A stretch of 64,000 nucleotides of DNA from Candidatus Didemnitutus mandela (lineage in GTDB: Bacteria; Verrucomicrobiota; Verrucomicrobiia; Opitutales; Opitutaceae): positions 1 through 64,000 of the forward strand of contig NJAL01000005.1 in the NCBI GenBank assembly GCA_002591725.1, in the 5' to 3' direction. Both the position numbers and the translations under genes were made by a program. Positions 4,502-12,281 of the stretch are shown here, piece by piece. How positions within the stretch are numbered: the first letter of the stretch is position 1; each line of letters begins with the position of its first letter. Under the pieces are notes generated by a model that saw nothing but the letters and a program-made list of their open reading frames with translations, was not told the origin of the DNA and did not search any database.

Positions 4502-4503
4502 CA

Positions 4504-4536
4504 GTTTAAACCAATCCGAGTATTGGAATTTTAAAC
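4504..4536. terminator. Hairpin between convergent lepB and ole operon
   Basis: GTTTAAA-CCAAT-CCGAGT-ATTGG-AAT-TTTAAAC forms an almost perfect inverted repeat of twelve paired bases. It sits directly after lepB (+) and about 50 bases beyond the end of oleB (-). A- and T-rich flanks on both sides would suit bidirectional intrinsic termination. There is no long uninterrupted T run, so the call is moderate. Confidence 0.5.
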
Positions 4537-4582
4537 GCACAATCAATATTATGTCTAATCTATTATTCTATTATTTACTTAG

Positions 4583-5476
4583 TTAGGAATCTGGCTTTGT
4601 AAAGTGTCGTTCGATCAGTCGGACGATGCTAGGATCGTCCTCTATCAGGTAGTGCCCTGCTTGGGGAAACAAGTTGGCCTCAGCCTCGGGTAGTAGCTCG
4701 AGCCAACGTTCGTAATAGCGTTTTCTGAAACAGAAATCGGCTCCGCCCCAGAGAATCAGTACATCCTTTTTCCGCAGGTTCAGCAACTGGCTTTCAATTT
4801 GTGCTAGTGCGGTGTCGCTTGGCGTGCCTTTCCCTGTCGGGATGTCGGCGACGAAGCGGTGGGTCGCAATGCGATTCGTCCATGAATCATATGGAAAAAG
4901 AAAACCGCGTTTCACGTCGCGCGGCAGCGGGCGAGTTACTGCCATCCACGTTGCTGACCAGGAGAAACTATTTAAACCGCGGACCAGCAGCTCGCCGAGA
5001 ATTGGAGCCCGGCAAAGTCGAATCCGAGCCGGGATGTGCGTGTCTGCAAATGCTGCTGTATTCATAATCACCACGCGACCGAGCTTTTCCGGCTGTGGCA
5101 ACAGCGCACCTAGGCCGATTGGCCCACCCCAATCGTGGAGAATCAGATGGATCTTTTTCAACGGAAAACGTTCGAGCAGCAAAGAAAGGTTCGCGATGTG
5201 GTTCGGAAGTGTGTAGGCGTAATCTTGGGGTTTGTCCGACAGGCCGCAGCCGAGATGATCCGGAATGATGCAGCGGAATTTTTGGCGCAGAGCTAGCGCG
5301 ACATTGCGATAGAAAAACGACCATGTGGGGTTCCCGTGCGCCATCAACACGGCTTTGTCGCTCTTGCCTTCGTCCAGGTAACTCATTCGGCCCGCGCCGA
5401 CATCGATCGTTTTTGGTGTGAACGGATATAACTGTTTCAGCCAGTCCGGAAGTTTCTTGGCCACGATTATTACCAC
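4583..5476 (-). CDS. oleB: OleB-type alpha/beta hydrolase (beta-lactone decarboxylase family)
   Basis: This 297-residue protein is related to haloalkane dehalogenases. The oxyanion-hole motif HGNPTWSFFYRN lies near residues 48-57. The nucleophile Asp is in LHDWGGPIG (about D115), and the catalytic His is in AGHYLIEDD (about H275). In Ole pathways OleB converts a cis-beta-lactone into an olefin with loss of CO2. The gene overlaps the end of the upstream oleA by 7 bases and starts with GTG, so translation is probably coupled. Lying next to an OleA favours OleB over a true dehalogenase, although family motifs alone cannot exclude the latter. OleC (lactone synthetase) and OleD (reductase), the usual neighbours, are missing downstream, where the convergent lepB lies 80 bases away. 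Confidence 0.85.
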   Translation of the reverse strand: MVIIVAKKLPDWLKQLYPFTPKTIDVGAGRMSYLDEGKSDKAVLMAHGNPTWSFFYRNVALALRQKFRCIIPDHLGCGLSDKPQDYAYTLPNHIANLSLLLERFPLKKIHLILHDWGGPIGLGALLPQPEKLGRVVIMNTAAFADTHIPARIRLCRAPILGELLVRGLNSFSWSATWMAVTRPLPRDVKRGFLFPYDSWTNRIATHRFVADIPTGKGTPSDTALAQIESQLLNLRKKDVLILWGGADFCFRKRYYERWLELLPEAEANLFPQAGHYLIEDDPSIVRLIERHFTKPDS

Positions 5477-6507
5477 TCGACCGCCAACATCAAACTGTTC
5501 AGTCCGCTTCCGATGCCGAGCAGGGCAATCTTATCCCCGACTTTGATCGCACCCTGTTCGTCGGCCAGAGCGAGTGTCGCCGGAAGCGCCGCCGATCCTG
5601 TATTCCCCAGCGTTTCAAAACTTGAAAAATCCTTTTTAAGGTCGAGTCCGAGCTCCTCGTAGAGTTTACTCCGGTGCGTCGACCCGACTTGATGGCAGAT
5701 TACGCGAGATGGCGTTGCTCGGGTCCAACCCGTCTCCTGTTCGAATTCGGCCCATGTGTTTTTGGCCACTTCGACGCCGGCGAGCAAAAGCTGTTCGGAG
5801 TCGGTTTGCATTTCGAGCTCATAACCGATGCTGTTGCCTTGGCAGAGCTCGTTAAATTGCGTAGCTGCTTGGCCGACGCTGCTAATCAGACGATGCCGCG
5901 GCACATTGGTCGGAAGCATGTTCTCATGGCAAACGATCACAGCGGCAGCGGCAGAACCAAGGGTGAGGTTGGCAAAAAATGGTTTGATCGTGTTGCGGCC
6001 CAGCGGTGTGGTGAGCAAATGTACGAGGGTTTTTTCGATGAGCGGCCGTCCATTTTCTCCGGAAGCGACCAAACCGCAGCGGATTTTCCCGGCGTCGATC
6101 ATGGCGGCAAGTATTACGAGGCCATTGAGGAAGCCGAGGCATGCGTTCGACAAATCGAAAACCTGGCAGTGCGGGCCGAGACCGATTTTATGATGGGCGA
6201 ATGAAGCAGTTGCTGGCTCGAGCATATCGCGGCAAACGGCGGAGTGGATAAAGGTTTCTATCTGCTCGGCGGCCAGCCGCGATTTCGCTAGCACAGCCTT
6301 TCCGGCAATGGCACTGGCATCGGATGGTTTGGTTCCGGCAGGCCACATCCGGCGCGCTTTGATGCCCGTCATGAACTCAAGGCGGCCGGCCGGCAGCTTC
6401 AGTCGTTCATAAGTTGGACGGAGCTTTTCCTCGAGCGTGGCCGAACTCCAGCACTCCTTTGGCAGCGCAACCGCGATCGATTCGATGAAAGCATGACGGA
6501 ATCGCAT
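5470..6507 (-). CDS. oleA: OleA-like thiolase (KAS III fold), head-to-head acyl condensation
   Basis: A 345-residue protein of the FabH/OleA superfamily. The signature MTGIKARRMWPAGTKPSDAS (about residues 46-65) and the block VCRDMLEPATASFAHHKIGL are typical of OleA rather than FabH. The latter block carries a glutamate, about E97, like the OleA base. The nucleophile Cys is in FDLSNACLGFLNG (about C123), His in ICHQVGSTHRSKL, and Asn in LGNTGSAALP. OleA condenses two fatty acyl thioesters to a beta-keto product in long-chain olefin and ketone synthesis. Here it sits 3 bases downstream of an enoyl-ACP reductase and overlaps oleB, so its substrates may come from the ACP-linked chain made by the same operon. 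That link is inference. Confidence 0.88.
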   Translation of the reverse strand: MRFRHAFIESIAVALPKECWSSATLEEKLRPTYERLKLPAGRLEFMTGIKARRMWPAGTKPSDASAIAGKAVLAKSRLAAEQIETFIHSAVCRDMLEPATASFAHHKIGLGPHCQVFDLSNACLGFLNGLVILAAMIDAGKIRCGLVASGENGRPLIEKTLVHLLTTPLGRNTIKPFFANLTLGSAAAAVIVCHENMLPTNVPRHRLISSVGQAATQFNELCQGNSIGYELEMQTDSEQLLLAGVEVAKNTWAEFEQETGWTRATPSRVICHQVGSTHRSKLYEELGLDLKKDFSSFETLGNTGSAALPATLALADEQGAIKVGDKIALLGIGSGLNSLMLAVEW

Positions 6508-6510
6508 GGA

Positions 6511-7323
6511 TTATTTTTCTGGCCGCATGGTGAGACGTATGACTTCTTTGTCGAAGTAGTTGCTGCCAAGTCCGGCGTCGACGATCACGGTGCTACCGTT
6601 AATGCCACTACTGCGTTCGCTGAGTAGGAAGACAGCGACACTGGCTACTTCCTGTGTTTCGAGATTCCTTTTCCGAAATGTAAGCTTTTCGGAAAAAAGA
6701 TAACTTTCCAAATACCCGGGAATGCCGGCGGAGGCGCTAGTTTTTAGCGGGCCAGAGCCGACGATATTGAAGCGCACGCCGGTGTCGGAACTGGAGGATT
6801 TTGCTAGAAACCGTGCACAGGAATCGAGCGCGGCCTTGATCGGTCCCATGTAACCGTAGTTGTCCGGAGTCGCGAGCAGCGAAGAAATGCCGATGCTGAT
6901 CACTGAGGCGTTTGGTACCAGATGTGGTTTAAAAGCGCGCGCAAGCTCCACGAGGGAAAACGCCGAAATGGCGGTTGACTGCAGAAAATCCTTTCGTTTG
7001 GTTTCTGTGAATGGTTTGAATCCCTCATTGTAGTTCGCGAAGGCGATCGAGTGCACAAGTCCGTGCAAGGGCACAAGGCCGGCGGCGGTGACGTTAGCTG
7101 CAAGCTGCTCGGTGGCAGACTCGTCTTCTGCGTCGCAGATAAAAACCGGCTTTCCTGCGAGCAGGGCTTCGAGAAAGTTTTTCCGCTTGGCTGAGCGCAC
7201 GGAGTAAACGACGCGGGCGCCCTGCTCTTCGAGGGTTTTAGCAATCAGCCAGGCGACGCTTTTGCGGTTTGCGACCCCTTGCACGAGGAAAGTTTTCCCC
7301 CTAAGTTGGAGAAAATCGGTCAT
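6511..7323 (-). CDS. fabI: FabI-type enoyl-ACP reductase (divergent SDR)
   Basis: The 270-residue short-chain dehydrogenase/reductase has the atypical cofactor loop of FabI (GVANRKSVAWLIAKTL) and the Tyr-X6-Lys pair in NYGYMGPIKAALD (Y156 and K163 from this start). It would reduce trans-2-enoyl-ACP, or a polyene variant of it. The ORF track starts at 7368, but the ATG at 7323 overlaps the fabZ stop by four bases (ATGA) and gives the expected N-terminus (FLQLRGKTFLVQGVANRKS). The region after the catalytic pair reads GPLKTSASAGIPGYLESYLF, as in FabI. Because it is embedded in the operon it may be specialised rather than the housekeeping enzyme. If no other fabI exists in the genome, it could serve both roles. 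Confidence 0.85.
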   Translation of the reverse strand: MTDFLQLRGKTFLVQGVANRKSVAWLIAKTLEEQGARVVYSVRSAKRKNFLEALLAGKPVFICDAEDESATEQLAANVTAAGLVPLHGLVHSIAFANYNEGFKPFTETKRKDFLQSTAISAFSLVELARAFKPHLVPNASVISIGISSLLATPDNYGYMGPIKAALDSCARFLAKSSSSDTGVRFNIVGSGPLKTSASAGIPGYLESYLFSEKLTFRKRNLETQEVASVAVFLLSERSSGINGSTVIVDAGLGSNYFDKEVIRLTMRPEK

Positions 7324-7781
7324 GCCGTCGGCATCGCTATTGTGACCTGGCCTTCCGGCATTTTCCACGCTACGGAGAAATCGGCGTTGATCACGCGTTT
7401 TTCTCCATTTTTCACGGCTCCGGACATCAAATAAAGGCCGTTAATTGTCTGATTGATTTTTACCTCGATCGTCGTCGTGTTGCCGGGATAAACAGGGCTA
7501 CGGAAACGGACGTTTTCTATCTTGGCGAGCAGCGGCACGCCACTGGTTTTTCCGCCTTGGGCGGAGAGCTTGCCGGAAAGCAGTAGCGCTCCGGTTTGGA
7601 AAACCGATTCGCATAGCAATACGCCGGGCGTGATGGGTGTGCAGGGGTAGTGCCCCTTGTAGAAATCCTCTTCAGCGCGCCAGGTGCGGCGGGAAACGAG
7701 GGAGTCGTCAGTGCTTGAGAGGATTTCGTCCACGAAAAGAAACGGCGGCCGATGCGGAATTAGCTGTTTAACTTTTTTCAT
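7320..7781 (-). CDS. fabZ: FabZ-like 3-hydroxyacyl-ACP dehydratase
   Basis: A 153-residue single hot-dog protein. The N-terminal [13 protein letters not shown] and the active-site helix [18 protein letters not shown] match FabZ, with catalytic His about H44 and Glu about E58. It dehydrates beta-hydroxyacyl-ACP. It overlaps the upstream flavoprotein gene and the downstream fabI by four bases each, a sign of tightly coupled translation. Family FabZ proteins are usually about 140-155 residues, so it is full length. The neighbouring KS, ACP and ER genes place it in a dedicated chain-building set, but no ketoreductase (FabG) lies in the operon. Confidence 0.88.
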
Positions 7782-9235
7782 GACAAGGGAGAGCTGGCGA
7801 GTGATCCGCGTCTTTTGGTGGCGAGAAATTTATCTACCTGATTGGCAACGATCACCCCGTAGTTGATCGTGCCGAGCCAACCGGACATGATAATACCGAC
7901 GGAGCCGGTATGGTAAAGTCCGGGCAGCTGCTGGGGTAGCTCCATTGAGACTTTGAGCCCTTCGAATTTGGTCCCGAACGAGGTGCCGGACCAGTGCTTT
8001 GTGTAGTGTTCGACGGTGCACGGCGTAGAGGCCTCGGACCAGTCGATCTTTGCGCGGATATCGGGAATAAGTTTTTCCAGCGCCGTGATCGATTCTTCGA
8101 TGAGGCACATTTTTTCCTGCTGATAAATTTCGTCGGACATGGTCTCCCAGTCGGTGTATTTCGCATTAACCGAAACGACGACAGTGTAACGGTTACTACC
8201 CGGCCGCGTGTCTGGGTAATACACCGAAAAGGCGCGGCTTGTCGTGTGCTTACCGACCAGTTTTTCGCTCGCGAATTTGGACTCTTCCGAGGCAAATACC
8301 AAGTCGCCGATGTGAGGAAGGGTTTCCCCTTTCCGAATACCGAGGTAAACTTGGCAGGAGCTTGTGTTTATACGGACCTCTTTCGTTTGGGCCACGAAGT
8401 CGGGAGAAAAGTTTTCTTCCCCTGCGAGACGAAGAATCGTGTTTTTTAGGTTGGCGTTGGACACGATCGCATCGCAGCGAATCAACCGGTCATTGGCGAC
8501 AAGGCCGGTGGCTACGCAGCGTCCATTGCACTCTTTTGTGACGATTTTTTCAACGGTTACGTGCTTGCGCACTTCAGCGCCGTTAGCCTTCAGCTCCAAG
8601 GCCATTTTCTTGATGAGCGTGTCTGTCCCGCCCTGGAAGGTGTAAACGCCCTTGCTCATAAAGTTGGAGAAAACAATACCGAAAGTGATTGCGGGATCCT
8701 CCAGCGTGGAGCCGTTGGCGTAGGCGATCGGCTCCATGAGGAGTCGCTGCACGTCGTCGCGGCCGGGAAAATAGCGTTCGAACATTTCACCGGTGGTTTC
8801 TGGGTTGTTGTCGTAAAAATTCATTGCTCGGAGATCGGTAAAGAAGCGTTCAACCGTTTTTGCGGAGATTTTGAATTTTTCGATAAGAATCCGTGTGAAG
8901 TCTTCGCGGTCGAATGTGGTGTCTATTTGAAACTGGGGGTTGATAAATCGGATGCCTTTGATCTGCACGATTGCATCCGCGATTTCCTGGCTCCAGTACT
9001 TTCGGGCGGATTTGATCATCCAGACTGGGAAGCCGTGGAGAGAAATGTCGAACATGTGGCCCCCTTTGCGGGTAAACCAAGTCGCCAGGCCGCCGAGTTG
9101 GTAGTGGTGTTCGAGAAGCAGCACCTTGTGGCCGCATTTCGCGAGCACATTGGCGCTGGTCAATCCAGCCAAGCCGCTACCGATCACGACAATGTCGTAG
9201 TGATCTTCGATATCTTTGAGCCAGTCGTAAGCCAT
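7778..9235 (-). CDS. Phytoene desaturase/retinol saturase-like FAD oxidoreductase (first copy)
   Basis: A 485-residue flavoprotein with an N-terminal Rossmann dinucleotide motif ([20 protein letters not shown]), the following ERH-like box ([19 protein letters not shown]) and a C-terminal FAD-contact region ([19 protein letters not shown]). This is the CrtI/CrtN-like amine-oxidase superfamily, whose members add, remove or move C=C bonds on long hydrophobic chains. No phytoene synthase or other carotenoid gene is nearby. All neighbours are ACP-dependent fatty-acid enzymes, so the substrate is more likely an acyl chain or its hydrocarbon product. A second, divergent copy lies directly upstream (57-base gap). 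The reaction cannot be predicted from sequence. Confidence 0.8.
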
Positions 9236-9292: not shown

Positions 9293-10732
9293 TTATGTAC
9301 GGCGGGCCTTTTCCGCTTGTAGTACGTGAAGGTTGGCTATGGAGATGCCGCTGAACATGGCGCCGATTATCCCGAATAACCCCTGGTCAGTGCCGCAGAT
9401 GTAGAGGTTTTTTAAGTGCGTGCGTCCATCTCGAACTTTACGAGGTGCGCCGTAGATCGCGCCGTTGAGATGCCCGGTGAATTTTTTTATCGTGCGCGGC
9501 GTAAACATATCGGTGGTTACCTGATTGGCGGGTAGGATCTCATTGGCGACTGGCTGCAGGAACCGCCGAGCGCTCTGCTGCATGCGCTCGAACCAGAGAC
9601 GCTTTGCTTCCTGGTACCTATCGTTGGGTTGATTGGCCCACGCGTTGTAGCTAGCGAGACTAGTTACCCGCATCAGCCCTTCGCCGAGCTTATCTTCCGC
9701 GTAATCGAAATTATTGGGAAAACAGATCACACCGCTGCGCGTGTCCACTGGCTTCCGCGTATGTTCGTAGGAAAAGCGTTCGGAGTCGTTGAAGAAAACG
9801 ATGGTGTCATCGCCCCAGCCCCAGTTTGCTGGCGGCTCGCGATAGACCGCGATCGTTTCCGCGAACGACAGCGCGCTGGTGTTGGCTGCGGCCTCTTCCT
9901 TGTGTGCGGCATCGCAGAGCAGCAGTGTTTCCGGAAAACCAATCGAGGAAATGACGTGGCCGACGGTAATGGCATCGCCGTTGTCGAGTTCGAGCGCGGC
10001 GACTTTTCCTTTCTCTTCCTCGATCCGGGCCACACCGCATTTCATCCAGCGTTCACCGCCGGTCTGGCGAAATCTCTCGAGCAGTACCCGGATGATCACC
10101 CGGACGCCCTCTAGCGGCCGGGCAAAGCCCTCGAGAAAGATGGCTTTGAACATCGTTACGAATTGTCTGAATTCCATATCTCGTTCCTGGGCGCTGCCGT
10201 AATACATAACCGGGCAGAAGATCATGTTAGTCAGTAGCGGATCGGTGAGGTACCGGGCGATGATTTCTCGGGCCGAGATTGGTTTCGCTGCGAGGGAAAC
10301 GTCGTTGTAAGCCCTTATCAATTGCACGAGGGCTCGCCAACCATCCGCTTGGTGGGGAAACTTGGCGGCGACTTCGGCGTCGAGCACGGTGAAGTTGTTT
10401 GTGAAGCGCAGCGTTATTTCCCCTCGAGGGCCGAAAGCGATTCGGGACTGTTTCTGCGGGCACAATGCAAGCTCGTCGCGATCGATACGGAGCTGGCGTA
10501 AGAGTTTGCCGAGCGGCGTGGCTTTCACTCCCGGCGGTACGTAATTTGTTATCGCATGCAAGCCGACGTCGAATTTCCGGCCAGCAATGCTGTAGAAACT
10601 ATTCAGTCCTCCTGGCGTATTGTGACGTTCGAAGATACAGACTTTTTGGCCGAAATGGGCTAGCCGGATCCCTGCGGCGAGACCCGACATGCCAGCACCG
10701 ATAATAGCAACGTCGTAATGGGATTTTTTCAT
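9293..10732 (-). CDS. Phytoene desaturase/retinol saturase-like FAD oxidoreductase (second copy)
   Basis: A 479-residue CrtI-like flavoprotein. The motif AIIGAGMSGLAAGIRLAHFG near residue 8 binds FAD; FERHNTPGGLNSFYSIAGRK follows, and the C-terminus reads YICGTDQGLFGIIGAMFSG. It differs clearly in sequence from the neighbouring copy, so the pair is an old duplication or two separate recruitments rather than a recent tandem copy. Comparable gene sets (KS, ACP, FabZ plus CrtI-like proteins) are known to me from proposed ladderane loci of anammox bacteria and from polyene clusters. That similarity is by gene type only. It sits 43 bases after the acyl carrier protein gene. Confidence 0.8.
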   Translation of the reverse strand: MKKSHYDVAIIGAGMSGLAAGIRLAHFGQKVCIFERHNTPGGLNSFYSIAGRKFDVGLHAITNYVPPGVKATPLGKLLRQLRIDRDELALCPQKQSRIAFGPRGEITLRFTNNFTVLDAEVAAKFPHQADGWRALVQLIRAYNDVSLAAKPISAREIIARYLTDPLLTNMIFCPVMYYGSAQERDMEFRQFVTMFKAIFLEGFARPLEGVRVIIRVLLERFRQTGGERWMKCGVARIEEEKGKVAALELDNGDAITVGHVISSIGFPETLLLCDAAHKEEAAANTSALSFAETIAVYREPPANWGWGDDTIVFFNDSERFSYEHTRKPVDTRSGVICFPNNFDYAEDKLGEGLMRVTSLASYNAWANQPNDRYQEAKRLWFERMQQSARRFLQPVANEILPANQVTTDMFTPRTIKKFTGHLNGAIYGAPRKVRDGRTHLKNLYICGTDQGLFGIIGAMFSGISIANLHVLQAEKARRT

Positions 10733-10775: not shown

Positions 10776-11030
10776 TTAAGCTTTGGCCTCGAACTTCGGC
10801 GTTAGGTAATTTGCACAACTTTCGAGCGAAGCCAGCTGTATGTAGTCGGCCTCGGGAACCTCAATGCCATGGCGTTTACGGAGCTCCATCACGATATCGA
10901 GAAAGTCCATCGAATCGAGCTGGAGTTGGTCGCGGAGGCGGAGCTCGGGTTTGATCCTCGAAATATCCTCATCCGGTGCGATGTCGGAAATGATATCAAT
11001 GACGAGCTTTTGGCATTGTTCTTTGGTCAT
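10776..11030 (-). CDS. Acyl carrier protein dedicated to the lipid operon
   Basis: An 84-residue acidic helical protein with the phosphopantetheine attachment motif LQLDSMDFLDIVMEL, Ser at about residue 40, where AcpP usually has DSLD. Helix III reads EVPEADYIQLASLESCANYL. Length and layout are those of a stand-alone ACP. It lies 12 bases after the ketosynthase gene and before the two flavoprotein genes, so it probably carries the chain acted on by the operon's enzymes. It differs from typical housekeeping AcpP in helix II (MELRKRHGIEVPE), which suggests a specialised carrier. Confidence 0.88.
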   Translation of the reverse strand: MTKEQCQKLVIDIISDIAPDEDISRIKPELRLRDQLQLDSMDFLDIVMELRKRHGIEVPEADYIQLASLESCANYLTPKFEAKA

Positions 11031-11042
11031 GAGAAGTGCATT

Positions 11043-12281
11043 TTAAGCATTGTAGCGCTTGATGATAAGTGTCGAGTTAATTCCTAGCATACCAAAAGAA
11101 TTGTTGAGTATAGAGTCAACTTTTTTCAAAGGACGAGGTTGGCTCAAAACCAAGCCGGGAATATCACACTGCGGATCAAGCTCGTCTACGTTGATCGTTG
11201 GGTGTGCTACGAGGTCGTTAAAGCTTGGTAGATTGCCCGCGAGTTCCAGTGCACCCGCGGCGCCCATTGCGTGGCCGATGAAGCTCTTGGTGTTGTTGAT
11301 GGCCGCTGGCTCTTTACGCTCGCGGAATACCGAAGCGATTGCCTGGCATTCCTGGATGTCACCTTGTGGCGTGGACGTCGTGTGTGTGTTGACGATGTCG
11401 ATGTCGTTCACGGTCATGTGCGCATTGGCTAGGGCGTATTGCACACACTCAGCCTGGCGCTTGGAATTGGGCAGCACGTAATCGATCGCGTCCGAATTCA
11501 CACAGTAACCAGCGACTTCGCCGTAAATTTTTGCTCTACGGGCGAGCGCATCATCGAGTCGCTCAAGCGCATAAATGCAGCCGCCTTCGGAAATGACAAT
11601 CCCGTTGCGGGTCTTGTCGAAGGGTCGGCTGGCTTTTTTCGGATCTTCGTGGTAAGCTAGCGCATTCTGGCTCTTGAAGCCGGCGAAGATGCCAAAACTT
11701 TGAGGGCTTTCACTCACGCCACCGGCCAGGGAAAAATCGACCTCCCCTAGCCGCAACATCTGGGTGGCGTGAATCAGGCCGAGATTGCTAGCGGCGCATG
11801 CCGCACCGATCGTGTAGGCTGGGCCGGTGATGCCGAGATTGAGTGAGACTTCTCCTGCCGGGCTGTTGGCAACCGTTCTTGGGTTGTGGTGGTGCGTCCA
11901 GAACTTTGTGTCGTGGTTGAAGAGCGAGATATTATAAACCTCGTTTTCCGTTTCGACGTTTCCGTGTTCGGTAATTCCGAGGTAAATGCCGATGCGGCTG
12001 CGATCGCGCGTATCCAGATTTACCTTTGCGTCTAGCAAGGCTTCCCGGGCGCAATAAATGGCGATGCTGCCGGCACGTGTGCCAATTCGGACGTCTTTCC
12101 TCTTCTGATGTCGATAGGAATCGAATTTGCACAGGCCCGCTGGCCATTTTCCCATGTAGCGTACGTCCATCCAGTCGATGCCAGAAATGCCATTGAGCAG
12201 ATTGTGGCGAAATTCGGCGAGATTATTGCCATTCGGTGCGGTGAGGCCAATACCAGTGATGACGATGCGCGCAAGTTTCAT
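11043..12281 (-). CDS. Beta-ketoacyl-ACP synthase (FabF family), first gene of lipid operon
   Basis: A 412-residue condensing enzyme with the complete KAS I/II triad: Cys in GAACAASNLG (about C162), His in VNTHTTSTPQGD (about H300) and His in KSFIGHAMGAAGALE (about H337). It elongates acyl-ACP with malonyl-ACP. It is first in an eight-gene minus-strand operon reaching oleB, with gaps of 57 bases or less and several overlaps. The nucleophile motif (GAACAAS) and the sequence around it diverge from housekeeping FabF, so it is probably the dedicated elongating synthase. There is no chain-length-factor partner or malonyl transferase next to it, arguing against a type II polyketide system. Confidence 0.87.
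   Translation of the reverse strand: MKLARIVITGIGLTAPNGNNLAEFRHNLLNGISGIDWMDVRYMGKWPAGLCKFDSYRHQKRKDVRIGTRAGSIAIYCAREALLDAKVNLDTRDRSRIGIYLGITEHGNVETENEVYNISLFNHDTKFWTHHHNPRTVANSPAGEVSLNLGITGPAYTIGAACAASNLGLIHATQMLRLGEVDFSLAGGVSESPQSFGIFAGFKSQNALAYHEDPKKASRPFDKTRNGIVISEGGCIYALERLDDALARRAKIYGEVAGYCVNSDAIDYVLPNSKRQAECVQYALANAHMTVNDIDIVNTHTTSTPQGDIQECQAIASVFRERKEPAAINNTKSFIGHAMGAAGALELAGNLPSFNDLVAHPTINVDELDPQCDIPGLVLSQPRPLKKVDSILNNSFGMLGINSTLIIKRYNA

Follow-up and report, generated by a model that had tools for sequence, protein, structure and literature searches.

A complete OleABCD olefin pathway, very probably encoded at two loci in Candidatus Didemnitutus mandela

The question raised by this locus is what an apparently intact oleB can be doing beside oleA where the genes for the two other enzymes of head-to-head olefin synthesis, oleC and oleD, are not to be seen. 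The window, i.e. the whole stretch of 64,000 nucleotides analysed here, belongs to Candidatus Didemnitutus mandela, a symbiont of tunicates whose reduced genome contains many pseudogenes (PMC5698493), and its relevant features are these:

4502..4582, no strand: intergenic region between the convergent lepB and oleB, 81 bp, with a weak CCAAT/ATTGG stem
4583..5476, minus strand: oleB, the gene that closes the operon; beta-lactone decarboxylase-like (similar to haloalkane dehalogenase subfamily III)
5470..6507, minus strand: oleA, head-to-head Claisen condensing thiolase
6511..7323, minus strand: FabI-like enoyl reductase (SDR); the ORF opens at 7368, with the likely start at 7323
7320..7781, minus strand: FabZ-like 3-hydroxyacyl-ACP dehydratase, with a FabA/FabZ domain and a 16-residue motif
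7778..9235, minus strand: fad2, CrtI/CrtISO-like FAD oxidoreductase by model matches
9293..10732, minus strand: fad1, second CrtI/CrtISO-like FAD oxidoreductase by model matches
10776..11030, minus strand: acyl carrier protein (PP-binding, 36.1 bits; DSM motif)
11043..12281, minus strand: ks, FabF-like ketosynthase, a discrete 412-aa protein

These eight genes form an operon that starts at 12281 in the order ks-acp-fad1-fad2-fabZ-fabI-oleA-oleB, with intergenic gaps of -7 to 57 bp. Its last two genes overlap by 7 bp, and oleB is an intact ORF of 297 aa, the stop of which lies 46 bp from position 4537, the lower bound of the examined interval. As the initial annotation had noticed, no oleC or oleD follows; the convergent lepB comes next and then lepA, and no homologue of either ole gene is present at this locus. 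The only other AMP-binding homologue on the same contig (C6) is divergent and about 130 kb away (C6:137070). The gap between oleB and lepB is real, measuring 81 bp from stop to stop rather than the 80 bases first given, and the hairpin placed there does contain a perfect 5-bp stem (CCAAT/ATTGG), which is weak, however, and was not called as a terminator when the intergenic region was scanned.

The missing genes were found elsewhere in the genome (2,171,216 bases in 10 contigs, 51.9% GC, estimated as 74.5% complete with 0.14% contamination). Both lie together on the minus strand of contig C3, at about 435055-438944, so that oleAB and oleCD occupy different contigs and do not make up a contiguous oleABCD set. 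OleC is a single match (C3:436158-437780) that reaches 624.7 bits to NF006754 (PRK09274; cut-off 478) in a frame free of internal stops. Against two narrow olefin beta-lactone synthetase models, which are tuned to Xanthomonas and Shewanella, it scores 537.6 bits (the Xanthomonas-type model, with a tight cut-off of 900) and 440.9 bits (cut-off 850). OleD, a 335-aa ORF located 44 bp beyond oleC, is also present in single copy; its score of 339 bits to the 2-alkyl-3-oxoalkanoate reductase model NF042422 stays below the cut-off of 580, yet this is by far its best model and is matched over its full length. Both proteins nevertheless align with the narrow models over their entire length, and models for other functions score far lower. 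Of the possibilities that had been offered for this locus, 'C and D elsewhere' was thus the correct one: intact oleC and oleD in another part of the genome are precisely what the initial annotation had named as speaking against its own reading, and the supposed chemical oddity of an OleB retained without OleC disappears.

Is this division of the pathway a product of the symbiotic lifestyle? OleB occurs in 71 and OleC in 69 of 76 genomes (the symbiont and its relatives), and in the relatives the two are nearly always at distant places. On the closed or near-closed chromosomes of G015, G016, G025, G032 and G067 they are at least 1.8 Mb apart, and in G017 the distance is 28 kb. The full eight-gene operon appears in the same order in the fetched neighbourhoods of twelve other Opitutaceae genomes; the Opitutaceae relatives examined have either all of it or only its fabZ-fabI-oleA-oleB half at one place, and rnd-oleC-oleD forms another conserved locus. 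In more distant members of the order, fabZ-fabI-oleA-oleB remains joined, while fad2 is found elsewhere in several genomes. The comparison with the closest relatives that had been proposed for this locus therefore shows the same two-locus layout and indicates that the symbiont has lost nothing; the split between AB and CD is ancestral and not a sign of decay. A loss of oleC and oleD by symbiont genome reduction was considered and rejected, since the symbiont still has both genes and the layout is no different in relatives with large genomes. As a separate observation, six genomes of family f52 in the phylum-wide sample (G241, G269, G287, G293, G307 and G327) contain OleA and fad2, whereas no OleC match in them exceeds the cut-off, reflecting either incomplete assemblies or real absence.

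In a genome undergoing reduction (PMC5698493), the pathway might nevertheless go no further than a beta-keto acid or ketone, which would make OleB a relic. The peculiar state of oleC lends this reading some weight. In the symbiont, rnd and oleC constitute one in-frame ORF of 945 aa (L006:9108-11945, minus strand, contig C3) which encodes an RNase D exonuclease, HRDC domains and then OleC; this fusion was seen in the symbiont only, the two genes being separate in all 14 relatives checked. The old end of rnd can still be read in another frame (..SAPAWQT and a stop, where relatives have ..PAWK(S/T) and a stop), which points to a minor shift of frame close to the 3' end of this gene that carries reading past the former stop. 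As there is no in-frame ATG at the former oleC start, it is the fused frame alone that spans the whole of OleC from one of the usual starts close to its beginning. The junction contains a run of nine C, and an assembly indel is a less likely but possible origin of the fusion. In addition, in the P-loop TSGSTSSPKG (OleC at L006:9111-10790, minus strand) the first Ser after TSGST replaces a Gly that is found at this position in all 22 other aligned sequences. Together, P-loop Ser and RNase D fusion could reduce OleC activity, and they are the sole hints of altered OleC function.

Rates and constraints, however, speak against a relic. The ratio of the symbiont's distance to the outgroup over that of its sisters is 1.01 for oleA, 1.10 for oleB, 1.25 for oleC and 1.00 for oleD, compared with 1.29 for lepA. 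The ole genes are not decaying, and they show no acceleration in excess of that of lepA. OleB, OleC and OleD are open and conserved; departures at otherwise invariant columns number seven in OleC, three in OleD and one in OleA, and in OleB, the very protein that would be the relic, there are none. With catalytic residues kept and no speed-up over lepA, OleB should normally receive its predicted beta-lactone. We thus consider a truncated pathway with a relic OleB unlikely, and its original motive has gone, as the genome has one OleA, one OleB, one OleC and one OleD. Elsewhere in the window, between 24000 and 64000, ORFs of at least 150 aa cover a fraction of 0.19-0.44 of each 8-kb slice, compared with 0.88 for the initial 8 kb, which is consistent with the low coding density reported for this symbiont.

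The same one-of-each inventory removes the reason for assigning OleB another substrate, as an ordinary haloalkane dehalogenase-like hydrolase, although its sequence does match haloalkane dehalogenase-like models and haloalkane dehalogenase structures, as well as the alpha/beta hydrolase fold. This is what a genuine OleB should look like, since OleB of X. campestris itself belongs to the dehalogenase-like subfamily III (PMC10503415). The residues N49, D115, W116, D247 and H275, which correspond to the pentad given for this subfamily (PMC10503415), are invariant in 20 aligned sequences and shared by OleB of the canonical, contiguous oleABCD set of genome G040. Furthermore, besides overlapping oleA in the symbiont, oleB adjoins it, with a single exception, in every oleB locus fetched from the relatives. 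OleA, in turn, is recognised by several features: it reaches 427.5 bits to PRK09258/NF006720 (cut-off 285), its closest PDB sequences are the OleA-type entries 3row/3s21, and from residue 97 onward it carries the motif EPxx[AS]x(14,18)DxxNACL, which was taken from PMC7158056. Its catalytic C123, E97, H272 and N302, like Y143 and K147 of OleD, are invariant, with the G040 set included. It is the one copy over the cut-off, and no second OleA or OleB over the cut-off was found elsewhere in the genome. A different substrate for OleB thus appears even less probable than a relic. Least probable of all is that OleC and OleD on C3 represent contamination or a separate beta-lactone pathway: apart from their lying on a different contig from oleAB, the same rnd-oleC-oleD synteny exists in same-genus relatives (56-66% identity), no second OleA over the cut-off is there to feed such a pathway, and the estimated contamination is 0.14%.

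With all four genes present, intact and in single copy, catalytic residues conserved and the same split in relatives, the genome very probably encodes a complete OleABCD head-to-head olefin pathway at two loci. By analogy to the known pathway, a beta-keto acid would arise from two acyl chains condensed by OleA and would be reduced by OleD; OleC would then close the beta-lactone, from which OleB would remove CO2 to yield a cis internal olefin.

Which acyl chains enter this pathway may be a matter for the upstream genes. The ketosynthase of the operon scores 300 bits against the fabF model, below the cut-off of 493.75, and has the Cys-His-His and Lys motifs; two other loci in the genome exceed this cut-off and represent housekeeping FabF. 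The operon therefore looks like a dedicated set with an extra, divergent FabF paralogue. The FabI-like protein (adh_short_C2, 179.8 bits) has FabI models as its best NCBIfam matches and contains Y-x6-K. The solved sequence closest to fad2 is the gamma-carotene desaturase 4rep (E=2e-9), which is also the top Foldseek match of its AlphaFold model; with a mean pLDDT of 68.7 and TM-scores of 0.25-0.44, this model is too poor to be read for mechanism. As to function, isomerase, desaturase or reductase activity is conceivable for the two flavoproteins.

A further line of information is the distribution of fad2. Of 289 evenly sampled Verrucomicrobiota genomes, counted without correction for shared ancestry, 73 have both fad2 and OleA, 4 have fad2 without OleA, 5 have OleA without fad2, and the remaining 207 lack both; thus, 73 of the 77 genomes with fad2 also contain OleA, and the other four all possess OleC. 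Outside the order, in distant classes too, OleA accompanies fad2 in 31 of 34 genomes, with fad2 located away from the ole genes in all eight loci read. A scan with a fad2 alignment profile gave at least 80 loci, and the matches listed were all from Opitutia/Verrucomicrobia. A Pfa-type synthase (a multidomain, KS-containing PfaA/PfaC) was not found in the symbiont genome, where all large KS ORFs fall within 20-87 kb of contig C1. Three giant KS-rich frames of 6379-9403 aa are situated there (C1:20981-87283), presumably those of the mandelalide trans-AT PKS, the mandelalide PKS of this symbiont having been described (PMC5698493).

That oleA and oleB are coupled to a type II fatty-acid module with two flavoproteins, and that fad2 and OleA co-occur even where they are unlinked, suggests a polyunsaturated hydrocarbon made without Pfa. 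With less confidence than for the Ole pathway itself, we infer that ketosynthase, ACP, dehydratase, enoyl reductase and flavoproteins build a special, probably polyunsaturated, chain and supply it to OleA. A broader proposal would be that in Opitutaceae a type II polyene synthase made of separate proteins, independent of Pfa, is dedicated to feeding OleABCD, i.e. that KS, ACP, FabZ and FabI together with the two CrtI/CrtISO-like flavoproteins, acting on acyl-ACP, make polyunsaturated chains which OleABCD joins head to head, and that fad2 is a phylum-wide, hitherto unassigned partner of Ole; this we put forward tentatively, as a plausible idea that may well prove wrong. No description of the Opitutaceae ks-to-oleB operon was found in the literature searched. 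Hydrocarbons from an Opitutaceae strain were reportedly described by Sukovich in 2010.

Overall, finding oleC and oleD elsewhere removes a false metabolic puzzle. The arrangement first noticed amounts to a known pathway that is split, and what makes the case interesting is the conserved operon together with the fusion of RNase D to OleC. Surveys designed like that of PMC7158056, in which oleBCD were required within 5 kb of oleA, would miss the Opitutaceae layout. Moreover, that a genome-reduced defensive symbiont retains the whole pathway suggests that the hydrocarbon is useful to it.

Compared with oleABCD of Xanthomonas campestris, Shewanella oneidensis and Micrococcus luteus, the symbiont has the same four enzyme families with one copy each and, where checked, the same catalytic residues. 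In contrast to the single cluster of these bacteria, however, AB and CD lie at two loci, and the fusion of oleC to RNase D is peculiar to the symbiont. A physical link between ole genes and a dedicated acyl-chain synthase, as probably present here, is also known from the tandem pfaDABC-oleABCD-pfaE of Geobacter bemidjiensis (PMC4882568), where it involves a multidomain Pfa PUFA synthase instead of dissociated type II KS, ACP, FabZ and FabI plus two flavoproteins. The Geobacter arrangement (PMC4882568) is resembled by one in G040 (L086:6650-18546), in which the canonical contiguous oleABCD lies next to the gene for a PfaC-like multidomain protein that matches two ketosynthase domains, an acyltransferase domain (weakly) and three FabA-like domains; the same genome also carries fabZ-fabI-oleA-oleB of the Opitutaceae type. 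Similar in parts to the operon described here are the FASII clusters with phytoene-dehydrogenase-like genes of Desulfotalea psychrophila and Kuenenia stuttgartiensis (Rattray 2009, PMC2649909), D. psychrophila being a producer of C31:8 and C31:9 hydrocarbons with no known PUFA synthase (PMC2649909). Judged by description, these clusters share FabF, ACP, FabZ and CrtI-like flavoproteins with the symbiont operon; a difference is that the latter has no radical SAM gene. Through the conserved Opitutaceae operon, polyunsaturated hydrocarbons might be made with no Pfa synthase involved, and this candidate route relates to the question that Rattray 2009 posed about Desulfotalea and the precursors of ladderanes.
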